DNA from: Oscillospiraceae bacterium
GTDB taxonomy: Bacteria > Bacillota > Clostridia > Oscillospirales > Acutalibacteraceae
DNA length: 64,000 nucleotides
Assembly: GCA_015066345.1 (NCBI GenBank)
Contig: SVOQ01000004.1
Location: 52,853 to 116,852, forward strand
Direction of reading: 5' to 3'
Shown here: piece after piece, positions 45,656-60,779 of the stretch
Position numbering within the stretch: position 1 is the first letter of the stretch
How the letters are laid out: each line of letters starts with the position of its first letter
Program-made: the position numbers and the translations under genes
Notes under the pieces: model-generated
Told to the model about the DNA's origin: nothing
Databases searched by the model: none
The model's input: the letters and a program-made list of their open reading frames with translations, nothing else

Positions 45656-45695
45656 AATTAGGAGTGAGGAATTTCGGGGCTTACGCCAATTATAA
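45656..45695 (+). repeat. Fragment of an interspersed repeat (GGAATT-CGGGGCT-ACGCC)
   Basis: AGGAGTGAGGAATTTCGGGG, then CTTACGCCAATTATAAT, matches the reverse complement of 56270-56310 (GGAATTACGGGGCTGACGCC then GATTATAAT) with few differences. The copy here is short and overlaps the last codons of the amidohydrolase gene. Confidence 0.6.
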
Positions 45696-46511
45696 TATTT
45701 TAAGAATATTATTATGTAAAATATCCTCAAGTTCTTCCCGGGATAAACCTAAACTGAAAAGGTATTCTAATTCTTCTTTTTGCTTCCACATAGGGTAGTC
45801 CGTTCCGAAAATAACTCTGTCAGCACCGTAAGTTCTTATGAGTTTTTTTGCCGTTTCTTTTTCTAATGCGTAAAAAGAAGAACAGGTGTCCACGTAGAAG
45901 TTTTTATATTCCGATAATTCTTCCGTGGCTTTTTCCCATATCGACCAACCACCAAAATGTGCACCTATAATGGTAAGATTCGGGAATTTTTCAAGAATGG
46001 TAGTCACTCGGTTGGGGTTTGAGTTATCAAAACGGGAATCGCCCGTGTGAAGAAGTACGGGTAAATCATTTTTTTCGCACAATTCAAATATTCTGAGGAC
46101 TTTCGGGTCATCAACTTTAAAATTCTGGATATCGGGATGTAATTTAACACCCTTTAAACCTGTTTCAATAAGATGCTCAACGTCCTCTGTCAGAGTTTCA
46201 CTTTCGGGGTGGAGTGAGCCGAAACCTATAAATCGTTCAGGGTACAGTGCAACTTCGCTTGAAATGTAAGCATTAATGCTCTGTGCGTGGTGGGGTGTGG
46301 TTGCAACGGAGGTCACAAGGCATTTCTCAACCCCTGTTTCGTCGCATTGTTTTATAAGGTTTTCGGCAGTGCCCACAAAAGCACAGCCGTCAATTTTCCC
46401 CAATGCACTTATACCGTAAAAAAGGTCAATACTGTCAGTTGCTTTTTTCGCAATGATGTCGGGGAATATATGACAATGGGAGTCAATTATTTTATAATCT
46501 TTGTAATTCAT
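45690..46511 (-). CDS. Amidohydrolase family TIM-barrel metal hydrolase
   Basis: A 273-residue amidohydrolase_2 protein. IDSHCHIFPDII supplies the first metal His pair. CLVTSVATTPHH follows, then GVKLHPDIQNFKVDDP, where His and Asp are likely ligands. VLLHTGDSRFDN and IIGAHFGGWSIWE provide two more His, and IFGTDYPMW provides the last Asp. The substrate is unknown; relatives are decarboxylases and lactonases of the ACMSD type. Its last codons overlap a repeat fragment, so the C-terminus may have been altered by it. Confidence 0.88.
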   Translation of the reverse strand: MNYKDYKIIDSHCHIFPDIIAKKATDSIDLFYGISALGKIDGCAFVGTAENLIKQCDETGVEKCLVTSVATTPHHAQSINAYISSEVALYPERFIGFGSLHPESETLTEDVEHLIETGLKGVKLHPDIQNFKVDDPKVLRIFELCEKNDLPVLLHTGDSRFDNSNPNRVTTILEKFPNLTIIGAHFGGWSIWEKATEELSEYKNFYVDTCSSFYALEKETAKKLIRTYGADRVIFGTDYPMWKQKEELEYLFSLGLSREELEDILHNNILKIL

Positions 46512-46577: not shown

Positions 46578-49037
46578 TTATTTCTGATTATTGTATCTGT
46601 CGAGCGATTCTTCTCTCATTTTGTATTTGAGAATCTTACCTGCCGCATTCATGGGGAATTCGTTTACGAATAAGAAATATTTAGGAACTTTGTGTTTTGC
46701 AATAGATGCGTAGCCGTATTCCTTCATTTCTTTTTCGTCAGCAGTTTCACCCTTGTGAAGAATAATCCAAGCGCAACATTCTTCGCCGTACTGTTCATCG
46801 GGAACACCAACAACCTGAACGTCACGAACTTTGGGGTTGGTAAGGTAGAATTCTTCGATTTCACGGGGATAAAGGTTTTCACCGCCACGGATAATCATAT
46901 CTTTAAGACGTCCCGTAACCTTGTAGTAGCCGTCAGGAGTTCTCATACAAATATCACCGGAATGAAGCCAACCTTCGCTGTCAATTGCCTGAGCAGTTGC
47001 TTCGGGCATTTTGTAGTAGCCCTTCATAATGTTAAAGCCACGTGCAACAAATTCACCACTCTGACCGTCGGGGAGTTCAAGACCGGTTTCGGGGTCGATA
47101 ATTTTACATTCAACACCGGGGAATGCACTACCGACAGTTTCAACACGGTGGTCAAGGTCTTCGTTTACTTCACCCATTGTGCAACCGGGTGAAGCCTCTG
47201 TCTGACCGTAAACTGAAATAATTTCACGCATATTCATTTCTACGGATGCACGGCGCATAAGGTCTGCGGGGCAGTTAGCACCTGCCATAATGCCTGTTCG
47301 CATATATGAAAAGTCGGTTTTTGCAAAATCGGGATGACCGAACATTGCAATAAACATTGTGGGAACACCATTGAAACAGGTAATGCGTTCATCATTTACA
47401 CAAGCCAGTGATGACTTTGGTGAGAAATAGGGGATGGGGCAAAGTGTACCGCCGTGGGTCATTGTAGAGGTCATTGAAAGCACCATGCCGAAGCAATGGA
47501 ACATAGGAACCTGAATCATCATACGGTCGGCAGTGGATAAATCCATTCTGTCACCGATTGTTTTACCGTTGTTTATAATGTTACGGTGTGTAAGCATAAC
47601 GCCCTTGGGGAAACCTGTTGTACCTGAAGTATATTGCATATTACAAACATCATCAGGCTTTACAAGTGAAGAACGTCTGCGAACTTCTTCTCTGGGAACA
47701 AGTGAAGAGCGTGATAACATCTGTTCCCATGTAAGACAACCGTCCATATCAAAGCCTACGGTAACAACGTTACGAAGGAAGGGGAGGTTCTTGGAGTACA
47801 AGGGAGTGCCGGGCTTAAGGTTTTTGAGTTCAGGACAAAGTTCTTCAATAATTGTCTTATAGTTGATATCCTTGCAGTACTCAATCATAACAAGGGTATG
47901 AGTATCTGACTGCTTGAGCAGGTATTCTATTTCGTGGATTTTATATGCGGTGTTAACAGTAACGAGAACTGCACCGATTTTTGTTGTTGCCCAGAAGGTG
48001 ATGAACCACTGAGGTACATTGGTTGCCCATATTGCAACATGGTCGCCTGCTTTTACACCCAGGGAAATTAACGCTGCTGCACATTCGTCAACGTCGCGAC
48101 GGAACTGCTCGTAAGTTCTTGTGTAGTCGAGTGTAGGATATTTGAAAGCATACTGGTCGGGATATTTTTCCACCATTTTATCAAGTACATCCGAGAATGT
48201 AGCGTCAATAACATCATACTTTTTCCAAGGGAATGTACCTGATTTATCACGGTTGTAATGTGTGTGGTCATAAACCTTTTTCGCACGACCTAAAGAGGAG
48301 ATGTAGTTTGTGAAGTGAGTGAGGACGATGTCTGCATCGCTGATTTCTTCATTCCACGCAGCACATATGAAACCTTCATAATTAAGTGAAGAAAGAGCGT
48401 TCAATAACTTCTCAACATCCAAATCGCCTTCGCCTATTAAAACGGTCTTACCGTCCTTCATATCACCAAGGCGTACATATTTAATGTAAGCACCTAAGTT
48501 TTTGATAGTGGTTTCTGCAGTTTCACCTGCATCAAAATATGTTCCTCTTACATTCCATGAAACACCGATAGCCGCCGAAGCAAAGTGGTTGATAACACCG
48601 ATTACGTTTTCGGTTCTTGCAAGATATCCGGTTGTTTCAAATAAAATGTTTACGTCACCTGACTGAGCGCGTTTAATTGCACCTGTCATTTTTTCGTCAA
48701 GAATATCGAAAGCTACTTCGCTCTGTGTGTGAACTATAACGTTTTCAACGCCTGATGCAGCTGCCATACTTACGTATTTTTCAACAAGCTCGGCAGAAGT
48801 GCTTTCGCTCTCAATGGGGTCGGGCATACGAAGAGCCGAAACGGTAAGGTTTCTGTTTATGAGTTTTCTTTTTGCGTCGGCAATACGTTCACGTCTTAAA
48901 ATACTGTCGTGATGTGAGCTTCTTTCTTTTATAGCATCGTAAATTTCAAAACCTTCAAAACCGTAATCAAAGGCATAGCGGCAGGTATCAAGGAAAGAGG
49001 CTCGACGCACATTTTTGGTCGAAAATACAATTTTCAT
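46578..49037 (-). CDS. TIM-barrel (sugar isomerase/AP endonuclease-like) fused to AMP-forming acyl-CoA synthetase
   Basis: An 819-residue two-domain protein. Residues 1-255 form a xylose-isomerase-like TIM barrel (FSTKNVRRASFLDTCRYAFD; VIVHTQSEV; ILFETTGY; YVRLGDMKDG; GEGDLDVEKLL). The expected metal ligands look partly lost: the usual HIKD is RLGD. Residues about 275-819 are an adenylate-forming acyl-CoA synthetase. The A3 loop is QYTSGTTGFPKGVMLTH, YGQTEASPG is A5, HSGDICMRTPDGYYKVTGR gives the hinge region, and the catalytic Lys is in MNAAGKILKYKMRE. The N-terminal fusion is unusual. The gene follows the LeuA-like gene by one base, with GAGGAGG before the ATG. The unit has a T-box fitting leucine, so isovalerate activation is the suggested role. 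Confidence 0.85.
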   Translation of the reverse strand: MKIVFSTKNVRRASFLDTCRYAFDYGFEGFEIYDAIKERSSHHDSILRRERIADAKRKLINRNLTVSALRMPDPIESESTSAELVEKYVSMAAASGVENVIVHTQSEVAFDILDEKMTGAIKRAQSGDVNILFETTGYLARTENVIGVINHFASAAIGVSWNVRGTYFDAGETAETTIKNLGAYIKYVRLGDMKDGKTVLIGEGDLDVEKLLNALSSLNYEGFICAAWNEEISDADIVLTHFTNYISSLGRAKKVYDHTHYNRDKSGTFPWKKYDVIDATFSDVLDKMVEKYPDQYAFKYPTLDYTRTYEQFRRDVDECAAALISLGVKAGDHVAIWATNVPQWFITFWATTKIGAVLVTVNTAYKIHEIEYLLKQSDTHTLVMIEYCKDINYKTIIEELCPELKNLKPGTPLYSKNLPFLRNVVTVGFDMDGCLTWEQMLSRSSLVPREEVRRRSSLVKPDDVCNMQYTSGTTGFPKGVMLTHRNIINNGKTIGDRMDLSTADRMMIQVPMFHCFGMVLSMTSTMTHGGTLCPIPYFSPKSSLACVNDERITCFNGVPTMFIAMFGHPDFAKTDFSYMRTGIMAGANCPADLMRRASVEMNMREIISVYGQTEASPGCTMGEVNEDLDHRVETVGSAFPGVECKIIDPETGLELPDGQSGEFVARGFNIMKGYYKMPEATAQAIDSEGWLHSGDICMRTPDGYYKVTGRLKDMIIRGGENLYPREIEEFYLTNPKVRDVQVVGVPDEQYGEECCAWIILHKGETADEKEMKEYGYASIAKHKVPKYFLFVNEFPMNAAGKILKYKMREESLDRYNNQK

Positions 49038-49038
49038 A

Positions 49039-50427
49039 TTATGCCTCCTCGAATACGATTTTGTTCAATGCGTTGATATATGCTCTGATACTTGCGGCAA
49101 CAATGTCGGTGGATGTGCCGTTACCTGAATAGAGTTTTCCGTTGTTGCGAAGTCTTACAAGTGCAGAACCGAGAGCTTCTTTGCCCTCTGTTACAGACTG
49201 CACCTGGAAATCGTCAAGCTCATAGTGGTGACCGATACACTGTTCAATTGCACGGAAAACGGAGTCAATAGGACCGTCGCCGTTGCTTACACCACAAATG
49301 ATTTCGTCGTTACATTTCAAAGTAACCTGAGACATAGATGTGGACATATTGCTGCTTGTTGTTGTATATGTTTCAAAGTGATAGGTGGAAGGAGCCTGCA
49401 TTGCAGAACTTGCTATAATTGCTTCAAACTCTTTGTAGCCGACAGCACCCTTCTTTTCACATACCTGTTTAAGAACCTTGTGTACGTTACCAACATCGGA
49501 ATCGGAAAGCTCGTAGCCTAAAACAGCCGCTGCCTGAGCAACCTGGTCAATTGTGGAATCAGTATCGAGAAGAATCTTTTTACCGTCGCTTACTGCTTTG
49601 TTGGTTTCATAAGCATCGTGGCTGATGCTTGATAACATATCTTCGATACTTGCATGGATTTTTGTGTTGTTAAGCTTAATTTCGGCATCTATTTGTGTGC
49701 CACAAGCGTTAATTGCATCGGAAATCTCACCGGTGAGAAGTGCATTTTTACCTGCCATTGCACATTTGAGACCGTCAGCACCGCTCTTAACAGCAAAGAA
49801 TGCGGATGCAACTGCCATACTTACGCTATCGGAAACCTGAACGTAAACGGGGATACTTACTGCCGATTTTACCTTTGCAACCAACTCTGCAATATTGTCG
49901 GGAGTTAAAGCACCCGCATCGTCACAGATTGTAATAACATTTGCACCTGAAGCTTCTGCTTCTTTAACGGCGGTAATAAGGAAATCCTCATCCGCTCTTG
50001 TTGCATCAAGTGCGGAGAATTCAACGTCGTCGCAAAATTCCTTTGCAGCCTTGATAAGTGTTGTGATTTTTTCAAGCATTTTTGCCTGTTTTACGTGATA
50101 AATGTATTCCATCTGAAGTGTGGAAACAGGAAGTTCAACCTGAAGACGGGGTTTCTTAGCATCCTTTATACATTCCCAGGCAACGGCAATATCTTCCGTG
50201 TTAAAACCAACGGGGATTGCAAAAATTGCATCTTGAACGTTCTGTGCAATTGTTTTATAGATGATTTTATCTTCGGCAGGGGATTTTACTGCGGGAATTT
50301 CAATTACATCCACACCGATTTTATCGGCACAGTTTGCAATTGCGGATTTTTCTCTGAATAGCAAGGATACGGCTCTATCCTCTGAAATCTTTTTAAGTGT
50401 GATGTCGGAAATGATAATTTTTTTCAT
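49039..50427 (-). CDS. Degenerate LeuA-like (2-isopropylmalate synthase family) protein, probably non-catalytic
   Basis: A 462-residue protein from the ATG at 50427 (AAAGG nine bases upstream; the earlier ATG abuts that site). It aligns along its length with 2-isopropylmalate synthase: a TIM barrel (1-260), linker, and a well-kept C-terminal LeuA dimer/leucine-binding domain (about 345-462; CNDEIICGVSNGDGPIDSVF, SGNGTSTDIVAASIRAYINA). The catalytic signature DTTLRDGEQ is replaced by DITLKKISED, and the metal-binding HxH is replaced by VQVS near residue 200. No catalysis is expected. It may be a leucine-responsive partner of the downstream synthetase. It is the first gene after the Leu-type T-box. 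Confidence 0.82.
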   Translation of the reverse strand: MKKIIISDITLKKISEDRAVSLLFREKSAIANCADKIGVDVIEIPAVKSPAEDKIIYKTIAQNVQDAIFAIPVGFNTEDIAVAWECIKDAKKPRLQVELPVSTLQMEYIYHVKQAKMLEKITTLIKAAKEFCDDVEFSALDATRADEDFLITAVKEAEASGANVITICDDAGALTPDNIAELVAKVKSAVSIPVYVQVSDSVSMAVASAFFAVKSGADGLKCAMAGKNALLTGEISDAINACGTQIDAEIKLNNTKIHASIEDMLSSISHDAYETNKAVSDGKKILLDTDSTIDQVAQAAAVLGYELSDSDVGNVHKVLKQVCEKKGAVGYKEFEAIIASSAMQAPSTYHFETYTTTSSNMSTSMSQVTLKCNDEIICGVSNGDGPIDSVFRAIEQCIGHHYELDDFQVQSVTEGKEALGSALVRLRNNGKLYSGNGTSTDIVAASIRAYINALNKIVFEEA

Positions 50428-50475
50428 TTTGCTCATCCTTTCGAACGTATAATATATAATGTATAATCATTTGGC

Positions 50476-50757
50476 AATAAAAAACCTGAGGTCAAAATAA
50501 TTTTGACCTCAGGGACGAATTCTTGAAAATCCGCGGTACCACCCCGGTTACTGCAAAAGCAGTCACTCATTAGGACTCTAAAAAGCCTGTAGCCATGGTA
50601 ACGGGGCCGCCGTAGTTTCTTATACACCGTAGGGGGTTGGGAAACTCTGCTCCGGAACGAGACCGAATTTTTGAAACACATTGGCTCACAGCAACCGCCA
50701 ACTCTCTGGAGTGTCAGGACAAAAACACGTAATTCCTTCATCGCATTTATGAATATG
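50476..50757 (-). ncRNA. T-box leader of the LeuA-like/acyl-CoA synthetase operon
   Basis: On the minus strand Stem I carries AGAGAGTTGGCGG, GCTGTGAGCC and GGTCTCGTTCCGGAGC. The T-box sequence TGGTACCGCGG is the complement of 50531-50541. The terminator is CCTGAGGTCAAAAT with AATTTTGACCTCAGG (50485-50513) and a T run. Judged from the 3' side of the specifier loop, CTC (Leu) is the best codon, with GTC possible. Uncharged tRNA would favour readthrough. Confidence 0.88.
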
Positions 50758-50763
50758 GGAGAA

Positions 50764-50792
50764 ATGATATCACCAATTGCTTTTTTTGTCAA
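50764..50792 (-). promoter_or_regulatory. Sigma-A promoter of the minus-strand T-box operon
   Basis: On the minus strand TTGACA (50792-50787), a 17-base gap and TATCAT (50769-50764). Confidence 0.8.
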
Positions 50793-50843
50793 CATTTATT
50801 TCTAAAATTTCAAAGAAATTTTCAAAAAACCGATAAAAAACTA

Positions 50844-50872
50844 TTGACACAAAAAAAGAAGTGTGATAATCT
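50844..50872 (+). promoter_or_regulatory. Sigma-A promoter of the first plus-strand T-box gene
   Basis: TTGACA (50844-50849), a 17-base gap and TAATCT (50867-50872). It is back to back with the minus-strand promoter, about 50 bases apart. Confidence 0.82.
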
Positions 50873-50879
50873 AATTCCA

Positions 50880-51170
50880 AATTAAAAATATCACAAATAA
50901 AAGCTGTGACGAAGACGGTCGAAATCAGCAGTTTTCAGAGAGTCGGCGGTTGCTGTGAGCCGATAACTTGTTTTTTTCATTGACCCATCCCTTCCGAGCC
51001 GAAGGTCCGAAAGATTTTTTCAAGTAGGCGCCTCCCGAGAATGCTGCGTTAGTGCAACGGGGTTGATAGACTCCTAAGGTGGCAATTTTATATTGCAATT
51101 TGAGTGGTACCGCGGATAAGTTTTATTCGTCTCAAAGTAAAGTTTAAATCTTTACTTTGGGATTTTTTTA
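50880..51170 (+). ncRNA. T-box leader of acyl-CoA synthetase 1
   Basis: Stem I has CAGAGAGTCGGCGG, GCTGTGAGCC and GACCCATCCCTTCCGAGCC. The T-box TGGTACCGCGG is at 51105-51115. The terminator CAAAGTAAAG/CTTTACTTTG (51133-51159) ends in seven T. The specifier loop reads CATCC between paired GACC and CTTC; its middle triplet ATC encodes isoleucine. The codon choice is by hand. Confidence 0.88.
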
Positions 51171-51214
51171 TTTGTGCATTTTTGATTATTTCTTTTTTGA
51201 AAGGATGAAAAGTT

Positions 51215-53488
51215 ATGGTCGATAATTCAGTAACAAACAAACTCGCTGAGGTTTCACAACGTATTGTTGAGCTTCGCGACATCTACGGCTTTACAGATGA
51301 GCAAATGGCAGAGAAAGCCCAGGTTTCCCTTGAGGAATATCACGCGTATTTAGATGGCAGAGAGGATATGCCTTTTGCGTTTGTTCACAAATGTGCACTT
51401 GCTTTTGATGTTGAAATTACGGATTTGCTTGAAGGTCAGAGTGCTAAACTTTCAACTTACAACGTAACCCGTTGCGGTGAGGGTACAACTACCGCTAACG
51501 AGGAGGGTATTCTTATTCAGAATATTGCTCCCAAATTCAAAAAGAAACTTGCTAACCCATATTGGGTTAAATACGAATATTCAAGTGAGCTTCAGTCCAA
51601 ACCCATTGAGGTTACAACCCACTCGGGTCAGGAATTTGACCTTGTTATAAAGGGTACTCTTAAGGTTCAGATTGGTGATAATATCGAGGTTCTTCACGAG
51701 GGTGACAGTATCTATTATAAGAGCTCTACACCCCACGGTATGATTGCCGTTGACGGTGAGGATTGTATCTTCCTTGCTATGGTTATGGCGGAGGACGAAA
51801 AGGTTGCCGACGAGCATATGAGTTCTGTTAACGTAGGCAAAGCTCCCGTTGAAGAAAAGCTTATTGTTGATAAATTCATCACAACAACCGTTGACGAAAA
51901 CGGTGTTTGCGACAGCATCAAATTCCACAATGAAGATAAATTCAATTTCGCATTTGATGTGGTTGACGAAATCGGCAGAAAATATCCCGAAAAACTTGCA
52001 ATGCTCCACATTGCAGAGGATATGACCGAAAGAAGATTCTCATTTAAGGATATTAAAGAAGCATCTTCTCAGGCGGCAAACTACTTCAAATCCCTTGGTA
52101 TCAAAAAGGGCGACAGAGTTCTTCTTGTTCTCAAGAGAAACTATCAGTTCTGGATTGCAATATTAGGTCTTCATAAGCTTGGTGCTATTGCAATTCCCGC
52201 AACAAATCAGCTTGTTGTTCACGATTACGAGTATCGTTTTAATTCCGCGGGTGTTTCAGCGGTCGTTGCAACTGCTGACGGCAAAGCCACCGATTACATT
52301 GATGAGGCTCAGTTGAACAGCCCTACACTTAAAATTAAAATCGTTGCCAACGGTGAAAAAGAAGGTTGGCATAATTTTGATGCAGAGTACGGTCTTTTCA
52401 GCCGTCGTTTCGTTCGTGATGAAAATACCGCTTGTGGCGATGACCCCATGATTATGCTTTTCACATCCGGCACAACAGGGTATCCCAAAATCGCTACTCA
52501 CTCTCATAAATATCCCTTGGGTCACTTTATCACCGCCAAATATTGGCATTGTGTTGAGCGTGACGGTATCCACTTTACCATTTCCGAAACCGGTTGGGGT
52601 AAAGCACTCTGGGGTAAGCTTTACGGTCAGTGGCTTTGCGAGGGTGCAGTTTTCGTATATGACTTTGATCGTTTTGATGCATCAAAGATTCTTCCAATGT
52701 TTGCAAAGTATAATATAACTACCTTCTGTGCACCTCCCACAATGTACAGAATGCTTATTAAACAGGATATTTCACAGTACGATCTTTCATCCATCAAACA
52801 CGCAACTACTGCCGGTGAGGCACTTAACCCCGAGGTATTTAAACAATTTGAAAAAGCAACGGGACTTCGTGTTCACGAGGGCTTCGGTCAGACTGAAACA
52901 ACCCTTTCTATCGCAAACCTTAACGGTACACCTATCAAAATCGGTGCTATGGGTAAACCCACACCCCTTTACGATATTGATGTGGTTGACCCCGACGGTC
53001 ATCCTGTGGCAGACGGTGAAACGGGTGAAATTGTAGTTCGTACTGATAGTAATGTTCCCTGCGGACTTTTCCTTGGGTATTACAATAATGAGGAAGCCAC
53101 CAAAGAAGTATATCATGATGGATTTTATCACACGGGTGATACTGCTTGGCGTGACGAAGACGGTTACTTGTGGTATGTTGGTCGTGTGGATGACGTTATT
53201 AAATCATCCGGCTACCGTATCGGACCATTCGAAATTGAGAATGTTATTATGGAGCTTCCCTATGTTCTTGAATGCGGTGTTTCTGCTGCACCCGACGAAG
53301 TAAGGGGACAGGTAGTTAAGGCAAGTATCGTTCTTACTAAGGGGATTGAAGGTACTGAGGAACTCAAAAAAGAAATTCAGGATTATGTAAAGAAAAACAC
53401 TGCTCCTTACAAATATCCCCGTATAGTTGTTTTCAGAGATGAGCTTCCCAAAACAATCAGCGGAAAAATCATCAGAAATAAACTGTAA
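51215..53488 (+). CDS. XRE HTH-cupin-acyl-CoA synthetase fusion 1
   Basis: A 757-residue three-part protein. Residues 8-72 are an XRE helix-turn-helix (ELRDIYGFTDEQMAEKAQVS then LEEYHAYL). Residues about 85-195 are a cupin (THSGQEFDLVIKGTLKVQIG; GDSIYYKSSTPHGM). Residues 235-757 are an adenylate-forming synthetase close to the medium-chain/ACSM type. A3 is LFTSGTTGYPKIATHSH, then GFGQTETTLS, HTGDTAWRDEDGYLWYVGR, and the catalytic Lys in LPKTISGKIIRNKL at the very end. The HTH and cupin may sense the acid or a CoA ester. With an Ile-type T-box, 2-methylbutyrate is the likely substrate. Its sister gene at 53878 is highly similar. AAAGGATG lies upstream. Confidence 0.88.
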   Translation: MVDNSVTNKLAEVSQRIVELRDIYGFTDEQMAEKAQVSLEEYHAYLDGREDMPFAFVHKCALAFDVEITDLLEGQSAKLSTYNVTRCGEGTTTANEEGILIQNIAPKFKKKLANPYWVKYEYSSELQSKPIEVTTHSGQEFDLVIKGTLKVQIGDNIEVLHEGDSIYYKSSTPHGMIAVDGEDCIFLAMVMAEDEKVADEHMSSVNVGKAPVEEKLIVDKFITTTVDENGVCDSIKFHNEDKFNFAFDVVDEIGRKYPEKLAMLHIAEDMTERRFSFKDIKEASSQAANYFKSLGIKKGDRVLLVLKRNYQFWIAILGLHKLGAIAIPATNQLVVHDYEYRFNSAGVSAVVATADGKATDYIDEAQLNSPTLKIKIVANGEKEGWHNFDAEYGLFSRRFVRDENTACGDDPMIMLFTSGTTGYPKIATHSHKYPLGHFITAKYWHCVERDGIHFTISETGWGKALWGKLYGQWLCEGAVFVYDFDRFDASKILPMFAKYNITTFCAPPTMYRMLIKQDISQYDLSSIKHATTAGEALNPEVFKQFEKATGLRVHEGFGQTETTLSIANLNGTPIKIGAMGKPTPLYDIDVVDPDGHPVADGETGEIVVRTDSNVPCGLFLGYYNNEEATKEVYHDGFYHTGDTAWRDEDGYLWYVGRVDDVIKSSGYRIGPFEIENVIMELPYVLECGVSAAPDEVRGQVVKASIVLTKGIEGTEELKKEIQDYVKKNTAPYKYPRIVVFRDELPKTISGKIIRNKL

Positions 53489-53524
53489 TCCGACGGAAAA
53501 TTATAACAAAATAGGTGTCTGCTC

Positions 53525-53553
53525 TTGACAAAAAAGGGTGGATGTGGTATCTT
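53525..53553 (+). promoter_or_regulatory. Sigma-A promoter of the second plus-strand T-box operon
   Basis: TTGACA (53525-53530), a 17-base gap and TATCTT (53548-53553), 37 bases after the preceding stop. Confidence 0.8.
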
Positions 53554-53559
53554 TGAGGA

Positions 53560-53850
53560 AATTGAATATTAAAGGCGTTGAAGAAAAGGGCGCGGTAAAT
53601 TCACCTTACAGAGAAGTGGCGGTTGGTGCAAGTCACAGGTTGGGTTATCGATGTTTGTAGTTTCCGAGCCGGGAGGAAGAAAGGCTTTCGCTCAGTAGAA
53701 CCTCTCCGTGATTGCTGCGTAAAGGCATAGGGGTTGTCTGACCCTGAGAGTGGCAGTTTTTAAACTGCAATTTGAGTGGTACCGCGGGTATAAATTTGTG
53801 TTTTTACTCGTCTCAAAGATTATCTTTGGGACGAGTTCTTGTTTTTTATC
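53560..53850 (+). ncRNA. T-box leader of the acyl-CoA synthetase 2/oxidoreductase/ilvE operon
   Basis: Stem I has CAGAGAAGTGGCGG, GGTGCAAGTCAC and TTTGTAGTTTCCGAGCC. The T-box TGGTACCGCGG is at 53777-53787. The terminator ACTCGTCTCAAAGAT/ATCTTTGGGACGAGT (53806-53835) is followed by TCTTGTTTTTT. The specifier is less clear than in the other two leaders; GTA or GTT (both Val) lie in the likely loop. Confidence 0.87.
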
Positions 53851-53877
53851 GTCCCGCCGAATTACAGGAGGATAATT

Positions 53878-56166
53878 ATGGAAAAAATTACCGGTCTTGA
53901 TTTTAAAATCAAGGAAATGGCAGCGCGTATCAAGGAATTAAGAGAAATTGAGAACTTAAGCGTTGCCGAAATGGCAATTAAAACCGACGTAAGCGAAAGT
54001 GAATATCTTGCTTGTGAAAACGGTGAAAGCGACCTTAACTTTGCGTTTATTTACCGTTGCGCTCTTGCATTCAATGTTGACGTTACAAGCATTATTGAGG
54101 GTCATAGCCCCAAGCTTTCAAACTATGTTTACACAAAAGCGGGTAAGGGTCAGAAGATTGAAAAAGCCCACGGTATGACTTACTTCAACCTTGCTTCTGC
54201 TTTCAAAAACAGAATCGCTGAGCCTCTTTTTGTTCACAGTGTTTACGACGAAGAAAAACAACACACTGATATTGAACTTACAACCCACGCGGGTCAGGAG
54301 CTTGATATTGTTATTGAGGGTAAGTTGAAAGTCCAGGTTGGTGAACACTACGAAGTTTTAGGCCCCGGTGACAGTATTTACTACGATAGTTCAACTCCTC
54401 ACGGTATGATTGCCGTTGACGGAAGTGACTGTACATTCTACGCAATTGTTCTTAATCCTACGGGTGAGCCCATTCCCGAACTTACCCACGCACAGACCTT
54501 GCGTGACACCAATAAATCCCACAAGGATACTAAAGAACGTATTTATCAGAAATTTATTGATGTTGAGGAAGACGAAAACGGTACTCCCACATCAATTAAG
54601 TTCAAAAATACTGAGAATTTCAACTTTGCATTCGATTTGATTGATGCTCTTGCAGATAAAGAACCCGACAAACTCGCAATGCTCCATATTTCGCGGGATA
54701 AAACCGAGCGTCGTTTTACTTTCAAGGATATGAAGAAAGCCTCAAACCAGGCTGCAAACTATTTCAAATCCCTTGGTATCAAAAAGGGCGACAGAGTTAT
54801 GCTCATACTCAAACGCCACTATCAGTATTGGTTTGCAATGCTCGGTCTTAATAAATTGGGTGCTATCGGTATTCCTGCACCCAACCAACTTCTTGAACAT
54901 GACCTTGAATATCGTTTCAATGCCGCAGGCGTTAAAGCAATTCTTTGTACTACCGACGGCGACGTTGCAAATCAGGTTGATATTGCCGCCCAAAAGAGCC
55001 CCTCATTAACTATTAAAATCGCAGTTGGTGAGGAACGCGAAGGTTGGCGTAACTACGACGAGGAGAGCAGATTGTTCAGCTCACACTATGAACGTACCGC
55101 TGATGCTCCCGGTGGCGACGACCTTATGCTTATGTTCTTTACATCCGGTACAACGGGATATCCCAAAATTGCCGTACATAATTATAAGTATGCCCTTGGT
55201 CATTTCCACACCGCTAAATATTGGCACAATGTTGACCCCGACGGACTTCACTTTACGATTTCCGATACGGGTTGGGCAAAGGCAATGTGGGGTAAACTCT
55301 ACGGTCAGTGGCTTTGCGAAGCAGGTCTTTTCGTTTATGACTTTGACCGTTTCGATGCTGCGGATATTCTTCCCATGTTCGCAAAACATAAAATAACCAC
55401 ATTCTGTGCACCTCCCACAATGCTCAGAATGATGATTAAACAGGATATTTCAAAATATGATTTCAGTTCTGTTAAGCATATGACAACTGCAGGTGAGGCT
55501 CTTAACCCCGAGGTTTACCGTCAGTTTGAAAAGGCTACGGGACTTCAGATTCTTGAAGGCTTCGGTCAGACTGAAAGCACAATGATTATCGGTAATATGA
55601 CAGGTGCACCCCATAAAATCGGTTCAATGGGTAAACCTGCTCCCATATACGACGTTTGTCTTCTTGATAGTGACGGTAACCCTGTTAAAGCGGGTGAAAA
55701 CGGTGAAATCGTTGTTAAAGTTAAAGACGGTGCACCTTGTGGCTTGTTTACAGGTTATTATCGCGATGAAGATAAAACAAAAGAAGTATGGCACGATGGT
55801 TACTACCATACGGGCGACGTTGCCTGGATGGACGAAGATGGTTTCTATTGGTATGTTGGTCGTGTTGATGACGTTATTAAGTCATCGGGCTATCGTATCG
55901 GACCCTTCGAAATCGAAAGTGTTATTATGGAACTTCCCTATGTTCTTGAGTGTGGCGTTTCCGCCGCCCCCGACGAAGTAAGGGGACAGGTAGTTAAGGC
56001 AAGTATCGTCCTCGTTAAAGGTACCGAAGGCACAGACGAGCTTAAGAAAGAAATTCAGCAATACGTTAAAGAGCGTACCGCTCCCTACAAATATCCCCGT
56101 ATTGTTGTATTTAAAGACGAACTTCCTAAAACCACAAGTGGCAAAATCCAAAGAAATAAGCTTTGA
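53878..56166 (+). CDS. XRE HTH-cupin-acyl-CoA synthetase fusion 2
   Basis: A 762-residue paralogue of the 51215 gene with the same three domains, starting at the ATG with AGGAGG six bases upstream. Helix-turn-helix: ELREIENLSVAEMAIKTDVS (residues about 19-38). Cupin: THAGQELDIVIEGKLKVQVG and GDSIYYDSSTPHGM. Synthetase: FFTSGTTGYPKIAVHNYKYA, EGFGQTESTM, HTGDVAWMDEDGFYWYVGR, and the catalytic Lys in LPKTTSGKIQRNKL. The ACSM-like family takes short and medium acids. It heads an operon with the oxidoreductase and ilvE; isobutyrate (towards valine) is the suggested substrate, but this is not visible in the sequence. Confidence 0.88.
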   Translation: MEKITGLDFKIKEMAARIKELREIENLSVAEMAIKTDVSESEYLACENGESDLNFAFIYRCALAFNVDVTSIIEGHSPKLSNYVYTKAGKGQKIEKAHGMTYFNLASAFKNRIAEPLFVHSVYDEEKQHTDIELTTHAGQELDIVIEGKLKVQVGEHYEVLGPGDSIYYDSSTPHGMIAVDGSDCTFYAIVLNPTGEPIPELTHAQTLRDTNKSHKDTKERIYQKFIDVEEDENGTPTSIKFKNTENFNFAFDLIDALADKEPDKLAMLHISRDKTERRFTFKDMKKASNQAANYFKSLGIKKGDRVMLILKRHYQYWFAMLGLNKLGAIGIPAPNQLLEHDLEYRFNAAGVKAILCTTDGDVANQVDIAAQKSPSLTIKIAVGEEREGWRNYDEESRLFSSHYERTADAPGGDDLMLMFFTSGTTGYPKIAVHNYKYALGHFHTAKYWHNVDPDGLHFTISDTGWAKAMWGKLYGQWLCEAGLFVYDFDRFDAADILPMFAKHKITTFCAPPTMLRMMIKQDISKYDFSSVKHMTTAGEALNPEVYRQFEKATGLQILEGFGQTESTMIIGNMTGAPHKIGSMGKPAPIYDVCLLDSDGNPVKAGENGEIVVKVKDGAPCGLFTGYYRDEDKTKEVWHDGYYHTGDVAWMDEDGFYWYVGRVDDVIKSSGYRIGPFEIESVIMELPYVLECGVSAAPDEVRGQVVKASIVLVKGTEGTDELKKEIQQYVKERTAPYKYPRIVVFKDELPKTTSGKIQRNKL

Positions 56167-56310
56167 TAAATTGCGAAGCTTATCATCCCTGTTTCAGCTT
56201 GCTGAAATAGGGAGGGGGACCGCGTTAGCGGTGGTGGGTAGTTCTCTTGCGGTTTTTATTCAGTCAGTTAAAGCGGAAATTATAATCGGCGTCAGCCCCG
56301 TAATTCCTAA
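56167..56310 (-). repeat. Interspersed hairpin-rich repeat element
   Basis: The spacer after the synthetase gene holds CCCTGTTTCAGC/GCTGAAATAGGG (56188-56211), ACCGC-GTTA-GCGGT (56219-56232) and a distal block whose reverse complement GGAATTACGGGGCTGACGCC recurs at 45656-45695. It has the look of a small non-coding repeat (MITE-like) inserted within the operon. Confidence 0.6.
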
Positions 56311-56330
56311 TTAAGAAAGTTGGTGCTTTG

Positions 56331-56993
56331 ATGCAGTACAAAAGAATGACCCTCTTTGCGGGGCACTACGGTAGCGGAAAAACAAATATCGCGGTAAATT
56401 ATGCATTGCATCTTAAAGCATTGGGTGAAAATGTGGTAATTGCGGACCTTGATATTGTAAATCCCTATTTCCGTACCCGTGACAGTCTTGAAGAATTAAA
56501 TGCGGCGGGTATTAAATTAATTTCTTCCGAGTTTGCAAGTTCCAATGTGGATTTACCCGCATTACCTCAGGAAGTTTATTCCATTCTTGACAAACGTGAA
56601 GAAAAAGCCATAATGGATATAGGCGGTGATGATAGGGGAGCCTACGCTTTGGGTAGGTATTCCGACGCCATTATCGAAGAAAATGATTACGAATTATTAT
56701 TCGTTTTCAATAAATATCGTCCTCTTACACCGGACGCAGAGTCCGCCGCCGAAATAATGGCGGAAATCGAGGCTGCCTGTAAGATGAAATTTACTGCAAT
56801 AGTAAATAACTCTAACTTGGGCGAACTCACCGTGGCGGAGGATATATTGAACTCTGTGGCGGAAACCGAAAGGTTAAGCGAATTAACGGGTCTGCCCGTT
56901 AAAATGACCGCCGTAAGAGCTGATTTAGTTAATAATCTCAACGGAAAAGTACAAAATCTGTTTCCGCTGACTTTACAAAAGAAAATTGTTTAA
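56331..56993 (+). CDS. MinD/ParA-like P-loop ATP-binding protein
   Basis: A 220-residue P-loop protein from the ATG at 56331. Walker A is LFAGHYGSGKTNIAVNYALH, of the GxxGxGK[ST] type; VVIADLDIVNPYFRTRD is the switch I region; AIMDIGGDDRGA is the Walker B region; FVFNKYRPLTP follows. It resembles the MinD/Mrp superfamily without the deviant KGG motif. Genes of this kind precede ferredoxin oxidoreductase genes in many Clostridia. Help in Fe-S insertion is possible but is inference. Confidence 0.78.
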   Translation: MQYKRMTLFAGHYGSGKTNIAVNYALHLKALGENVVIADLDIVNPYFRTRDSLEELNAAGIKLISSEFASSNVDLPALPQEVYSILDKREEKAIMDIGGDDRGAYALGRYSDAIIEENDYELLFVFNKYRPLTPDAESAAEIMAEIEAACKMKFTAIVNNSNLGELTVAEDILNSVAETERLSELTGLPVKMTAVRADLVNNLNGKVQNLFPLTLQKKIV

Positions 56994-57008
56994 ATTGGAG
57001 GCAGAACA

Positions 57009-57215
57009 ATGGCAAAAGTTACATTTGCAGAAAATGTATGTAAGGGTTGCGGTTTATGTGTAAACGCGTGTCCCAAAAAGATTGTTGAATTAGATGCGTC
57101 TAAACTCAATGCAAAAGGTCATCATCCTGCACACTGTATTGACGAGAGCAAATGCATAGGTTGCGCTTTCTGTGCTACAATGTGCCCTGACTGTGCTATA
57201 ACTGTTGAAAGGTAA
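57009..57215 (+). CDS. 2-oxoacid:ferredoxin oxidoreductase delta subunit (2[4Fe-4S])
   Basis: A 68-residue ferredoxin-like subunit. Two complete cluster motifs are visible: CKGCGLCVNACP and CIGCAFCATMCP. It carries electrons between the TPP-containing core and soluble ferredoxin. GGAGG precedes the ATG, and the other three subunits follow directly. Confidence 0.93.
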   Translation: MAKVTFAENVCKGCGLCVNACPKKIVELDASKLNAKGHHPAHCIDESKCIGCAFCATMCPDCAITVER

Positions 57216-57225
57216 GGTGAAATAA

Positions 57226-58290
57226 ATGGGTGAGAAAGTTTTAATGAAGGGTAATGAAGCTATTGCTGAAGCCGCTATCAGAGCGGGTTGTATGCATTAT
57301 TTCGGTTATCCCATTACTCCTCAGACAGAAATTGCCGCATATATGGCAAAACGTATGCCCAAAGTAGGTGGCGTATTCCTTCAGGCAGAAAGTGAAATTG
57401 CCGCAATTAATATGGTTCTCGGTGTTGCCGCAACAGGTAAACGTGTTATGACATCGAGCTCAAGCCCCGGTGTATCCCTTAAGAGCGAGGGTATCTCTTA
57501 CATAGCAGGTTCCGATGTTCCTGCACTTATTGTTAACGTTCAGCGTGGTGGCCCCGGTCTCGGCGGTATTCAGCCCTCTCAGTCCGACTATTTCCAGGCA
57601 GTTAAGGGCGGTAGCCACGGTGACTTTATGAAGATTGTTCTTGCACCTTCTTCGGTTCAGGAAATGGCTTCTCTTACAAGCACCGCTTTTGACCTTGCTG
57701 ATAAATACAGAATGCCCGCAATGATTCTTGCGGACGGTACAATGGGTCAGATGATGGAGCCTGTTGAACTTCCCGAAACAGAACCCAACACATTCGATAA
57801 ACCCTGGGCACTTACAGGTACAAAGGGCGAGAGAAAACACAATATCGTAAACTCTCTTTACCTTAAACCCGAAGAACTTGAGAAAACAAACTTTGAACGT
57901 TTCGCAAGATATAAAACAATCGAAGAAAACGAAGTTCTTTACGAAGAATACCTTATGGATGATGCAGATATCTGCGTAGTTTCCTTTGGTATTACTGCCC
58001 GTGTTGCCAAAAACGCTATTGTTGAAGCAAGAGCAAAGGGTATTAAAGTTGGTATGATTCGTCCCATTACTCTCTGGCCCTTCCCCAAGAAAGTGTTAAG
58101 AGAAGCAGCTGACAAGTGCAAAGCATTTATCTCTGTTGAAATGAATATGGGTCAGATGATTGAAGACGTTAAACTTGCAACAGAATGCAAGAAACCCGTA
58201 TACCTTTGCAACCGTACCGGTGGTATGATTCCTTCTCCCGAAGAAGTACTTGCAAAGATTGAAGAAGTTAACGAAGGAGGCGACAAATAA
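57226..58290 (+). CDS. 2-oxoacid:ferredoxin oxidoreductase alpha subunit (VorB type)
   Basis: A 354-residue subunit containing the pyrimidine-binding domain. GNEAIAEAAIRAGCMHYFGY followed by PITPQTEI is the entry signature, with SSSSPGVSLKSEGISYIAG in the substrate region and VQRGGPGLGGIQPSQSD next. The C-terminal MIRPITLWPFPKKVL is typical of 3-methyl-2-oxobutanoate:ferredoxin oxidoreductase VorB. 2-Oxoglutarate and pyruvate relatives are alike in sequence, but the neighbourhood (T-box, ilvE) favours branched-chain 2-oxoacids. Confidence 0.9.
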   Translation: MGEKVLMKGNEAIAEAAIRAGCMHYFGYPITPQTEIAAYMAKRMPKVGGVFLQAESEIAAINMVLGVAATGKRVMTSSSSPGVSLKSEGISYIAGSDVPALIVNVQRGGPGLGGIQPSQSDYFQAVKGGSHGDFMKIVLAPSSVQEMASLTSTAFDLADKYRMPAMILADGTMGQMMEPVELPETEPNTFDKPWALTGTKGERKHNIVNSLYLKPEELEKTNFERFARYKTIEENEVLYEEYLMDDADICVVSFGITARVAKNAIVEARAKGIKVGMIRPITLWPFPKKVLREAADKCKAFISVEMNMGQMIEDVKLATECKKPVYLCNRTGGMIPSPEEVLAKIEEVNEGGDK

Positions 58291-59042
58291 TGGTAGTATT
58301 CGAAAAACCTAAGACATTAACAGATGCACCGCTTCACTATTGTCCCGGTTGCACACACGGTATTATCCACAGACTTGTTGCCGAAGTTATTGATGAACTT
58401 GGTATTGACGGCAGAACAATCGGTGTAGCTCCCGTTGGTTGCTCCGTTATGGCTTACGATTATTTTACTTGTGACTTTATTCAGGCACCTCACGGTAGAG
58501 CTCCGGCTGTTGCTACCGGCGTTAAACGTGCCGACCCCGAAAACAATATCGTTTTCACATATCAGGGTGACGGTGACCTTGCCGCTATCGGTACTGCCGA
58601 AACAGTACACGCTGCCGCAAGACGTGAAAACATCACTGTTATTTTCGTAAACAACGCTATTTACGGTATGACAGGCGGTCAGATGGCTCCTACAACTCTT
58701 CCCGGTCAGGTTACTCAGACTTCACCCTACGGTAGAGATGTTGAAACTGTTGGTTACCCCGTTAAGGTTTGCGAACTTCTTCAGAATGTTGACGGTGCCG
58801 CATACCTTGAAAGAGTTGCGGTTAATAATCCCGCAAACGTAAGAAAAGCAAAAGCCGCAATCAAAAAGGCTTTCCGGAATCAGCTTGACGGTAAAGGCTT
58901 CTCACTTATTGAAGTTGTTTCAACTTGTCCTACAAACTGGGGCCTCACACCTCAGAAAGCACTTGAATGGCTTGAGGAGAATATGCTTCCTTATTATCCT
59001 CTCGGTGTTTATAAAGATATCTATGCAGAGGAGGCAAAATAA
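58290..59042 (+). CDS. 2-oxoacid:ferredoxin oxidoreductase beta subunit (TPP-binding)
   Basis: A 250-residue thiamine pyrophosphate subunit. HYCPGCTHGIIHRLVAEVID opens it; YQGDGDLAAIGTAE with VIFVNNAIYGMTGGQMAPTT is the TPP/Mg motif GDG-x(n)-N. Its ATG overlaps the alpha-subunit stop by one base. It holds the carbon chemistry: reversible condensation of an acyl group with CO2 through TPP and the nearby Fe-S clusters. Confidence 0.92.
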   Translation: MVVFEKPKTLTDAPLHYCPGCTHGIIHRLVAEVIDELGIDGRTIGVAPVGCSVMAYDYFTCDFIQAPHGRAPAVATGVKRADPENNIVFTYQGDGDLAAIGTAETVHAAARRENITVIFVNNAIYGMTGGQMAPTTLPGQVTQTSPYGRDVETVGYPVKVCELLQNVDGAAYLERVAVNNPANVRKAKAAIKKAFRNQLDGKGFSLIEVVSTCPTNWGLTPQKALEWLEENMLPYYPLGVYKDIYAEEAK

Positions 59043-59044
59043 TT

Positions 59045-59581
59045 ATGAGCAACACATGTAATATTCTTTTTGCAGGTTTCGGCGGACAGGGTATCCTTTT
59101 CGCAGGTAAATTCGTTGCATACAAAGGTCTTCTCGAAAATAAGCAGGTTTCTTGGCTTCCTTCCTACGGTCCTGAAATGCGTGGCGGTACTGCAAACTGT
59201 AGCGTTATCGTAAGTGATGAACCCATCGGTTCACCCATCGTAGGTAAACCCGACGTGCTTGTTGCAATGAACCTTCCTTCTCTTGATAAATACGAGAATG
59301 AAGTTGTGCCCGGTGGTAAAATCTTCGTTGACTCAACCCTTATTTCACGTAAGGTTGAAAGAACTGATGTAGATGTTTACTATATTCCTGCAACTTCCAT
59401 TGCTAATGAGCAGGGTATCAGCACACTCGCTAATATGATTATTACAGGTAAACTTCTTAAGGAAGTTCCTATGCTTGGTTTTGACGGCATTGATGCACCT
59501 CTCTCAAAGGTTGTTTCAGCACGTAAAGCACACCTCCTTGAGGTTAACAAAACCGCACTTAAACTCGGTTATGATTATTAA
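59045..59581 (+). CDS. 2-oxoacid:ferredoxin oxidoreductase gamma subunit
   Basis: A 178-residue subunit of the CoA-binding gamma type. [18 protein letters not shown] is the glycine-rich start, [20 protein letters not shown] follows, and the C-terminus is helical. It completes the four-subunit enzyme (delta, alpha, beta, gamma order), with two bases between genes. Confidence 0.92.
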
Positions 59582-59605
59582 TTGATTTGAAAAGAGGTTA
59601 TTTCA

Positions 59606-60682
59606 ATGAGTTACGATTTCAAAATTGAAAGAACTGCAACTCCCAAGGTAAAACCCGTTGATGAAAGCAAACTCGGTTTTGGTAAAATCTTTACTGACCA
59701 TATGTTTTTAATGAACTATGACGAAGGTCAGGGTTGGCACGACGGCAGAGTTGTTCCCTATGGTCCTATTTCTCTTGACCCCTCTGCAATGGTTTTCCAC
59801 TATGCTCAGGAGCTTTTCGAAGGTCTTAAGGCATACAGAACTGCAGACGGCGATATTCAGCTTTTCCGTCCTCAGAAAAATATTGAAAGAATGAACAACA
59901 CTTGCGACCGTCTTTGTGTTCCTCGTCTTGACCCCGATATGGTTCTTGAGGCTATAAAGACAGTTGTTGATGTTGATAGTGATTGGGTTCCTCACAACGA
60001 AGGCACATCACTTTACATCCGTCCTTTCATTATTGCTACTGACGAATTCCTTGGTGTTCATCCCTCACACAGCTACCTTTTTGCTATTATCCTTTCACCC
60101 GTTGGTTCTTACTATCCCAACGGTATGGACCCTGTTAAAATCGCTATTGAACGTGAATATGTTCGTTGCGTTAAGGGCGGTACAGGTATGGCTAAAGCAG
60201 GCGGTAATTACGCTGCATCTCTTATCGGTCAGGAAAAGGCAGATAAAATGGGCTATGCTCAGGTTCTCTGGCTTGACGGTGTTGAGAGAAAGTACATTGA
60301 CGAAGTTGGCGCAATGAACGTTTTCTTCGTAATTGACGGTGTTGTTATCACTCCAGAACTTACTGACGGCAATATTCTTCCCGGTGTTACAAGAGCAAGT
60401 TGTATCGAAGTTCTTAAAGCACACGGCTATAAGGTTGAGGAACGTAAGATTTCTATTGATGAAGTTAAAGAGGCTCACAAAAACGGCACTCTTAACGAGT
60501 CTTTCGGTACAGGTACAGCGGCTGTTATTTCACCCGTTGGCGAGTACATTGACGGCGACGAGCATATCGTTATAAACAATAACGAAATCGGTGAAGTTGC
60601 TCAGTTCCTTTACGATGAACTCACAGGTATTCAGTGGGGTAAAATCGAAGATAAGAACGGCTGGATAGTTAAAGTTAAATAA
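59606..60682 (+). CDS. ilvE: Branched-chain amino acid aminotransferase
   Basis: A 358-residue class IV PLP aminotransferase. QELFEGLKAYRTADGDIQLF, then RPQKNIERMNNTCDRLCVP, GGTGMAKAGGNYAASLIGQE and LWLDGVERKYIDEVGAMN (the PLP Lys lies in this last region) match group II branched-chain aminotransferases. It makes Val, Leu and Ile from their 2-oxoacids using glutamate. AAGAGG precedes the ATG. As last gene of the T-box operon it completes the anabolic route from branched acyl-CoA to amino acids. Confidence 0.95.
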   Translation: MSYDFKIERTATPKVKPVDESKLGFGKIFTDHMFLMNYDEGQGWHDGRVVPYGPISLDPSAMVFHYAQELFEGLKAYRTADGDIQLFRPQKNIERMNNTCDRLCVPRLDPDMVLEAIKTVVDVDSDWVPHNEGTSLYIRPFIIATDEFLGVHPSHSYLFAIILSPVGSYYPNGMDPVKIAIEREYVRCVKGGTGMAKAGGNYAASLIGQEKADKMGYAQVLWLDGVERKYIDEVGAMNVFFVIDGVVITPELTDGNILPGVTRASCIEVLKAHGYKVEERKISIDEVKEAHKNGTLNESFGTGTAAVISPVGEYIDGDEHIVINNNEIGEVAQFLYDELTGIQWGKIEDKNGWIVKVK

Positions 60683-60687
60683 TTCCC

Positions 60688-60723
60688 ATTTGCAACTCTC
60701 GTACGAGAGTTGCAAATTTTTTT
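60688..60723 (+). terminator. Terminator after ilvE
   Basis: TTTGCAACTCTCG and CGAGAGTTGCAAA pair perfectly and end in eight T. Confidence 0.92.
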
Positions 60724-60738: not shown

Positions 60739-60779
60739 CCCAATGATATTAATACATTTTTATGAAAAGGAGCCTTTCT

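Follow-up and report, generated by a model that had tools for sequence, protein, structure and literature searches.

A probable T-box regulon for converting scavenged branched short-chain acids to leucine, isoleucine and valine in an Oscillospiraceae bacterium

In a stretch of 64,000 nucleotides from a gut bacterium of the Oscillospiraceae (assembly GCA_015066345.1, contig SVOQ01000004.1, positions 52,853 to 116,852 of the forward strand; hereafter the window, numbered from its first letter), three transcription units start in two intergenic regions, the Leu unit on the minus strand and the Ile and Val units on the plus strand. Each begins with a T-box leader and encodes an acyl-CoA ligase. 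The Leu ligase is preceded by a LeuA-like protein, and the Val ligase is followed by a P-loop protein, a four-subunit 2-oxoacid:ferredoxin oxidoreductase and the aminotransferase IlvE. With a probability of about 0.84, the three units form a regulon by which scavenged branched short-chain acids are built up into leucine, isoleucine and valine. A first-pass annotation of the DNA had proposed such a salvage pathway; what it had observed was confirmed and its interpretation is supported by the evidence given here.

All three T-boxes reported in the first-pass annotation were found by the covariance model RF00230 of Rfam. The leader of the Leu unit (50508..50750, minus strand) scores 102.9 bits and that of the Ile unit (50897..51137, plus strand) 94.9 bits, both above the gathering score of 93 bits; the leader of the Val unit (53569..53818, plus strand) stays below it with 81.7 bits (E 4.6e-17), though it is full length. 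The specifier was taken to be the bases nine to seven before the GAG of the K-turn, which is one base before the four-pair lower helix of stem I. Read in this way, the leaders display CUC for leucine (50659-50661), AUC for isoleucine (50987-50989) and GUA for valine (53657-53659), so that none of them specifies an unrelated amino acid. The five remaining T-boxes of the genome served as a test of this rule. Those of pheS (TTC), trpB (TGG), ileS (ATC) and thrS (ACC) fit at the same offset; in the alaS T-box, where the helix has five pairs, GCT lies one base further upstream. The pheS codon was printed by a script and the trpB, thrS, alaS and ileS codons were read by eye, with the genes named after the N-terminal sequence of the protein encoded downstream. 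The thrS T-box (L005, G000:C6:39279-39581) is itself unusual: it is 303 bases long, contains an inserted hairpin-rich stretch, and has GGAACCGTGG in its core in place of GGTACCGCG.

The specifiers recur among relatives. The sample comprised the window and 80 loci from metagenome-assembled genomes, the best 80 of 575 confirmed places, mostly from the ruminant gut; 17 T-box cores without any of the three genes adjoining were left out of the count, and a strict reading demanded 4/4 helix pairs and a single codon. By this standard a leucine specifier is present in 25/26 T-boxes ahead of the LeuA-like gene (24 CUC, 1 CUG), AUC in 60/63 T-boxes ahead of the Ile ligase, and a valine specifier in 71/80 T-boxes ahead of the Val ligase (70 GUA, 1 GUC). 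Most of the 1 Leu, 3 Ile and 9 Val T-boxes that lack a single strict reading show the same codon by eye; the unread T-boxes include two, in L070 and L101, that are truncated by the contig end. The specifier codon is constant while the adjoining bases vary somewhat, and the CUG and GUC of relatives are synonymous. The assembly contains tRNA-Leu(GAG) and tRNA-Val(UAC).

A TTGACA-N17-TATxxT promoter had been claimed for every unit. It holds strictly for the Leu unit (TTGACA-17-TATCAT, 50764..50792, minus strand, 11/12 matches) and the Val unit (TTGACA-17-TATCTT, 53525..53553, plus strand, 10/12 matches) but not for the Ile unit, in which TTGACA-15-GATAAT (50844..50870, plus strand) was recognized by eye; this pair lies outside the spacer range of the promoter scan, which did not list it, and 17-TAATCT is an alternative reading. 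Among the T-boxes of relatives with enough upstream sequence, TTGACA is the -35 element of the best-scoring upstream pair in 25/25 Leu, 59/61 Ile and 68/78 Val cases, and the spacing of these promoter-like pairs, each the best of all positions and scored without a shuffled control, is mostly 17 bases. Terminator-like hairpins overlap the T-box in all three leaders of the window (Leu, 50485..50513, minus strand; Ile, 51129..51163, plus strand; Val, 53806..53836, plus strand).

The ligases of the Ile unit (51215..53488, plus strand) and the Val unit (53878..56166, plus strand) carry a helix-turn-helix (HTH) and a cupin domain at the N-terminus of the acyl-CoA ligase and are 64% identical. The Val ligase starts at the ATG at 53878, which follows AGGAGG; the TTG at 53839 had been listed as the start mechanically. 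The closest solved structure of both is Macs of Methanosarcina (3ETC; 613 bits for the Ile and 619.8 bits for the Val ligase), and the best curated model is MbcS (NF047394; 442.8 and 440.3 bits). They share the ligase domain with Macs and with MbcS of Staphylococcus aureus, and the tryptophan counted as Trp259 in 3ETC is kept as W449 of the Val ligase. They differ from both in the N-terminal HTH-cupin fusion, in the occurrence of two paralogues and in scores that fall short of the MbcS equivalog cut-off. According to parts of the respective papers, Macs of Methanosarcina acetivorans prefers 2-methylbutyrate (PMC10455477), and S. aureus MbcS uses 2-methylbutyrate and isobutyrate but isovalerate only poorly (PMC10026030). 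From their sequences, the Ile-unit enzyme is predicted to be a 2-methylbutyrate ligase and the Val-unit enzyme an isobutyrate ligase. Since MbcS is poor with isovalerate, two MbcS/Macs-like ligases together with a Leu ligase from a different branch fit this division.

Right after the GW motif, 80/80 Val ligases have Ala and 63/63 Ile ligases have Gly. The same pocket position (Val310 of acetyl-CoA synthetase, in which we take it to line the acyl pocket) is occupied by Gly in 3ETC, Val in an acetyl-CoA synthetase, Ala in 4-hydroxybutyrate ligase and Ile in ACSM2A. As proof of the substrate this residue was rejected and kept as a hint only, given the Ile of ACSM2A and one locus (L026) in which an AUC-like T-box is paired with Ala. 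The genome of that locus (G028) measures 1.1 Mb and has a single fused ligase, possibly one enzyme for two acids. Because some relatives (G018, G033, G039) encode the HTH-cupin part in a frame of its own, directly ahead of an unfused ligase, the fusion looks derived. In seven further loci (L023, L024, L027, L028, L029, L031, L032) a fused ligase follows a T-box in which ATC is the candidate specifier; two of the genomes, G060 and G014 (L023, L024), have IlvC and one fused ligase listed, which suggests salvage of isoleucine only.

The Val unit was said to run on into the oxidoreductase and ilvE, and this was found as claimed, except that a gene for a P-loop NTPase-like protein (56328..56993, plus strand; weak Pfam matches) intervenes between ligase and oxidoreductase. 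Its product may help to assemble the oxidoreductase or to supply it with electrons. On the same strand follow the ferredoxin (delta) subunit of 68 residues (57009..57215; Fer4), the alpha subunit of the VorB type (57226..58290; NF005507, 557 bits, cut-off 399), the thiamine pyrophosphate (beta) subunit (58290..59042) and the gamma subunit (59045..59581), the latter two identified by Pfam with scores below the NCBIfam cut-offs, and finally the branched-chain aminotransferase IlvE (59606..60682; NF009897, 502 bits, cut-off 307). Among the 80 loci, vorA is present in 65, and in 65/65 of these the order P-loop gene, vorD, vorA stands downstream of the Val ligase on the same strand; IlvE is the last gene in 50, lies between the ligase and the P-loop gene in 4 and was undetected in 11. 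This arrangement bears on the possibility that the ligases, as S. aureus MbcS does, supply branched-chain acyl-CoA primers to membrane fatty acid synthesis and that amino acids are secondary. Against it stand the different branched-chain amino acid specifier of each leader, the oxidoreductase and IlvE in the Val operon, and the absence from the draft genome of the pathway genes looked for, described below; supply of primers as the main role is accordingly unlikely.

In the draft genome, which is 98.2% complete in 48 contigs, IlvC gave no match in a search that was positive in 14/14 controls, and IlvD gave none either. Acetolactate synthase was not found in the draft, the one similar match being IolD (830.7 bits). 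Nor was LeuC: the single aconitase-family candidate place is a frame of 653 residues (two matched pieces, one listed), and LeuC-like frames in relatives have about 420-500 residues. LeuB was likewise not found there; the one LeuB-like (Iso_dh) match reaches 145 bits versus 353 and agrees best with isocitrate dehydrogenase models, none of them over its cut-off. In a first set of 79 genomes (this one and 78 relatives), IlvC is absent from 24/30 with a fused ligase (the 30 include G061, whose fusion has an internal stop), compared with 15/49 without (p 2.4e-5, shared ancestry ignored). The genus of the bacterium contributes 12 genomes: a fusion without IlvC occurs in seven, both together in two, and IlvC without a fusion in two; the remaining one, G006, contains unfused pieces but no whole copy of either. 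In a second set of 197 genomes from the order, which shares at least 34 members with the first, IlvC is absent from 15/16 with two full-length fused ligases, 32/46 with one and 37/135 with none; frames with an internal stop and copies cut by a contig end were left out of this count, so that G195 was counted with one and G169 with none.

These results also bear on the direction of the pathway. Oxidoreductases of the VOR type and IlvE are reversible enzymes of peptide fermentation, and the same genes might degrade valine, leucine and isoleucine to acyl-CoAs, with the ligases working in reverse. However, T-boxes are known to induce when their amino acid is short, AMP-forming ligases are known to spend ATP, and the genomes with two fusions mostly lack IlvC. 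The anabolic direction preferred by the first-pass annotation is far likelier, as none of the de novo genes looked for turned up in the draft genome, and fermentation is a very improbable use of this gene set.

The first gene of the Leu unit, before the ligase, encodes the LeuA-like protein (49039..50436, minus strand). We take the LRD and HxH motifs of LeuA to comprise catalytic and metal-binding residues. The window protein has K15, K16, Q200 and S202 where R-D and H-x-H are expected, and LRD[GA] and HxHND are missing from 32/32 aligned LeuA-like proteins (one fragment of 263 residues was left out). By position in this alignment, R15, D16 and H202 occur in none of the proteins and H200 in one (L104). 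Among 20 orthologue loci including the copy of the window, R15 occurs in three, D16 in none, H202 in one, and both histidines, or HxH[ND], in none. The best equivalog score of the protein is 257.6 bits versus a cut-off of 532, short of what the 2-isopropylmalate synthase model demands. By contrast, the LeuA_dimer regulatory domain is kept (108.9 bits) and strongly conserved: among 25 sequences 38/132 of its positions are invariant versus 25/300 in the barrel. The predicted structure (predicted template modelling score 0.59) resembles leucine-bound LeuA of Mycobacterium tuberculosis (3FIG) over both domains; the window protein differs from it in lacking the catalytic residues and in being paired with a ligase. 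The LeuA-like gene was seen in 32/80 and the TIM-barrel ligase in 31/80 stretches; they lie either upstream in divergent orientation or, on the same strand, to one side or the other.

The fold and the regulatory domain would also suit an ordinary isopropylmalate route, in which LeuA extends 2-ketoisovalerate obtained from isobutyrate and the ligase is unrelated, and T-boxes ahead of leuA are known from Geobacter and Pelobacter, as a portion of PMC2494555 describes. The motifs expected of an active LeuA are missing, however (LRD[GA]/HxHND in 0/32 aligned proteins, HxH[ND] in 0/20 orthologue loci), and neither LeuC nor LeuB was found in the draft genome, which makes such a route hardly credible for the Leu unit.

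The Leu ligase (46578..49037, minus strand) bears an N-terminal xylose-isomerase-like TIM barrel and resembles PRK12583 (663.5 bits, cut-off 832); its structure model is poor, with a mean pLDDT of 63.8. It is a predicted isovalerate ligase, and of the substrate assignments this is the weakest link. By eye, the barrel seems to be devoid of metal-site histidines, a motif presumably usual in xylose-isomerase-like enzymes; since these seem lost, the barrel may also be a binding domain. An amidohydrolase (45690..46511, minus strand; Pfam Amidohydro_2) is possibly the last gene of the unit: among the 31 loci with the ligase, it lies at most 300 bases past it in 18, 4 have no room for it, and 9 do not have it there (in L042 it lies at 308 bases). 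The three acyl-CoA synthetase units of the first-pass annotation are thus present, but the lost catalytic residues of the LeuA-like protein and the N-terminal domains fused to the ligases had been overlooked.

In the salvage regulon, an uncharged cognate tRNA would cause a leader to read through its terminator and thereby induce the matching ligase. The Leu-unit ligase would convert isovalerate to its CoA thioester, that of the Ile unit 2-methylbutyrate and that of the Val unit isobutyrate. Reductive carboxylation of the three thioesters by the common oxidoreductase would yield 2-oxo acids, from which IlvE would form leucine, isoleucine and valine by amination. With less support, the catalytically dead LeuA might sense leucine through its kept regulatory domain and restrain its ligase. 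A generalization of this idea is tentative and in our estimate rather less probable than even: gut Clostridia without de novo synthesis may use two layers of control, in which each ligase is induced when its own tRNA is uncharged and restrained by a built-in or partner sensor, the dead LeuA with the TIM-barrel ligase for leucine and the fused HTH-cupin for isoleucine and valine.

Several observations weigh against the salvage regulon. In an Rfam scan of six relatives, the gathering score was reached by 5 Leu leaders but by only 1/6 Val and 0/6 Ile leaders. If the frame is shifted one base later, serine codons appear in 60/60 Ile and 24/25 Leu leaders, so that the specifier frame is fixed by the calibration on other T-boxes and not by conservation alone. 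No tRNA-Ile(GAU) was found in the draft assembly, perhaps because rRNA operons are poorly assembled. No ligase reaches the MbcS equivalog cut-off of 850, and the substrates named here are therefore predictions. While the Ile and Val ligases stand closest to Macs and MbcS, the nearest models and solved structures of the Leu ligase are fatty-acid and aryl enzymes, the best structures being fatty-acyl, feruloyl and malonyl ligases; only for the former two does kinship speak against a preference for aromatic or long-chain acids, which would contradict the salvage pathway. In L026, the AUC-like T-box stands ahead of a ligase with the Val-type pocket residue. In 48/80 loci, the LeuA-like gene was not seen in the stretch examined. 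When its own genome was searched with the LeuA-like protein, the sole other hit was a weak one to a frame of 467 residues, and the apparent absence of a canonical LeuA depends on this search, no LeuA family model having been run; the same query weakly showed LeuA-type frames of 559 residues in G001 and G003. The IlvC counts across genomes take no account of phylogeny, both routes are present in G001, G003 and G123, and the 37/135 fusion-free genomes mentioned above also lack IlvC, so that absence of the pathway can mean plain auxotrophy. As G001 and G003, members of the same genus, keep both routes, salvage is not only a sequel to loss.

Genes around the three units (41906-43030, 60762-62225 and 62290-63816; SpoIIIAE, LytR-CpsA-Psr and SipL/SPOCS-LysM) belong to sporulation and the envelope, and the two downstream neighbours (60762-62225, 62290-63816) were found in 6/80 loci.

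Formation of leucine by carboxylation of isovalerate in rumen bacteria is mentioned in part of PMC7356843, which cites work from 1962 and 1966, and a section of PMC10658910 has methanogens making isoleucine and leucine from 2-methylbutyrate and isovalerate. The predicted chemistry and the habitat are the same as in this isoacid carboxylation of rumen bacteria and methanogens (Allison and others, from 1962); there, as far as these excerpts go, the physiology was described, whereas here a gene set and its control emerge in uncultured Clostridia. A protein search for cultured Ruminococcus species gave, where names were shown, those of metagenome-assembled genomes. Leaders with branched-chain amino acid specifiers ahead of biosynthetic genes are likewise familiar from Firmicutes, in which, in the portion of PMC2494555 cited above, they control tRNA ligases, transporters and biosynthesis genes such as leuA. 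The window differs from those examples in having acid-CoA ligases, one amino acid per ligase, and in addition an oxidoreductase. In line with the first-pass statement that no described regulon of this exact layout was known, none turned up among the titles and opening lines of abstracts listed in literature searches, which reached few subscription papers, and the words CoA, branched-chain and oxidoreductase are all missing from the main text of a broad T-box survey. The RNA switch, the enzyme classes and the physiology are thus already known; one tRNA sensor per acid and the repurposing of domains were not found described.

Branched-chain acids have been regarded as growth factors of ruminococci since 1962, to judge from a title in the reference list of PMC7356843, and isoacids are fed to ruminants, as part of PMC10311502 states. 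If the salvage regulon exists as proposed, it would provide candidate genes, a specificity and a genetic switch for the isoacid need of many ruminant-gut Clostridia. It would predict genomes that depend on the isoacids of their neighbours, which models confined to ilv and leu genes would call plain auxotrophs, and the repurposed LeuA would clearly exemplify an enzyme of biosynthesis that has become a sensor. The cell would rebuild whichever of valine, leucine and isoleucine runs short, and a growth requirement in the rumen that has been studied since the 1960s would obtain its likely genes.

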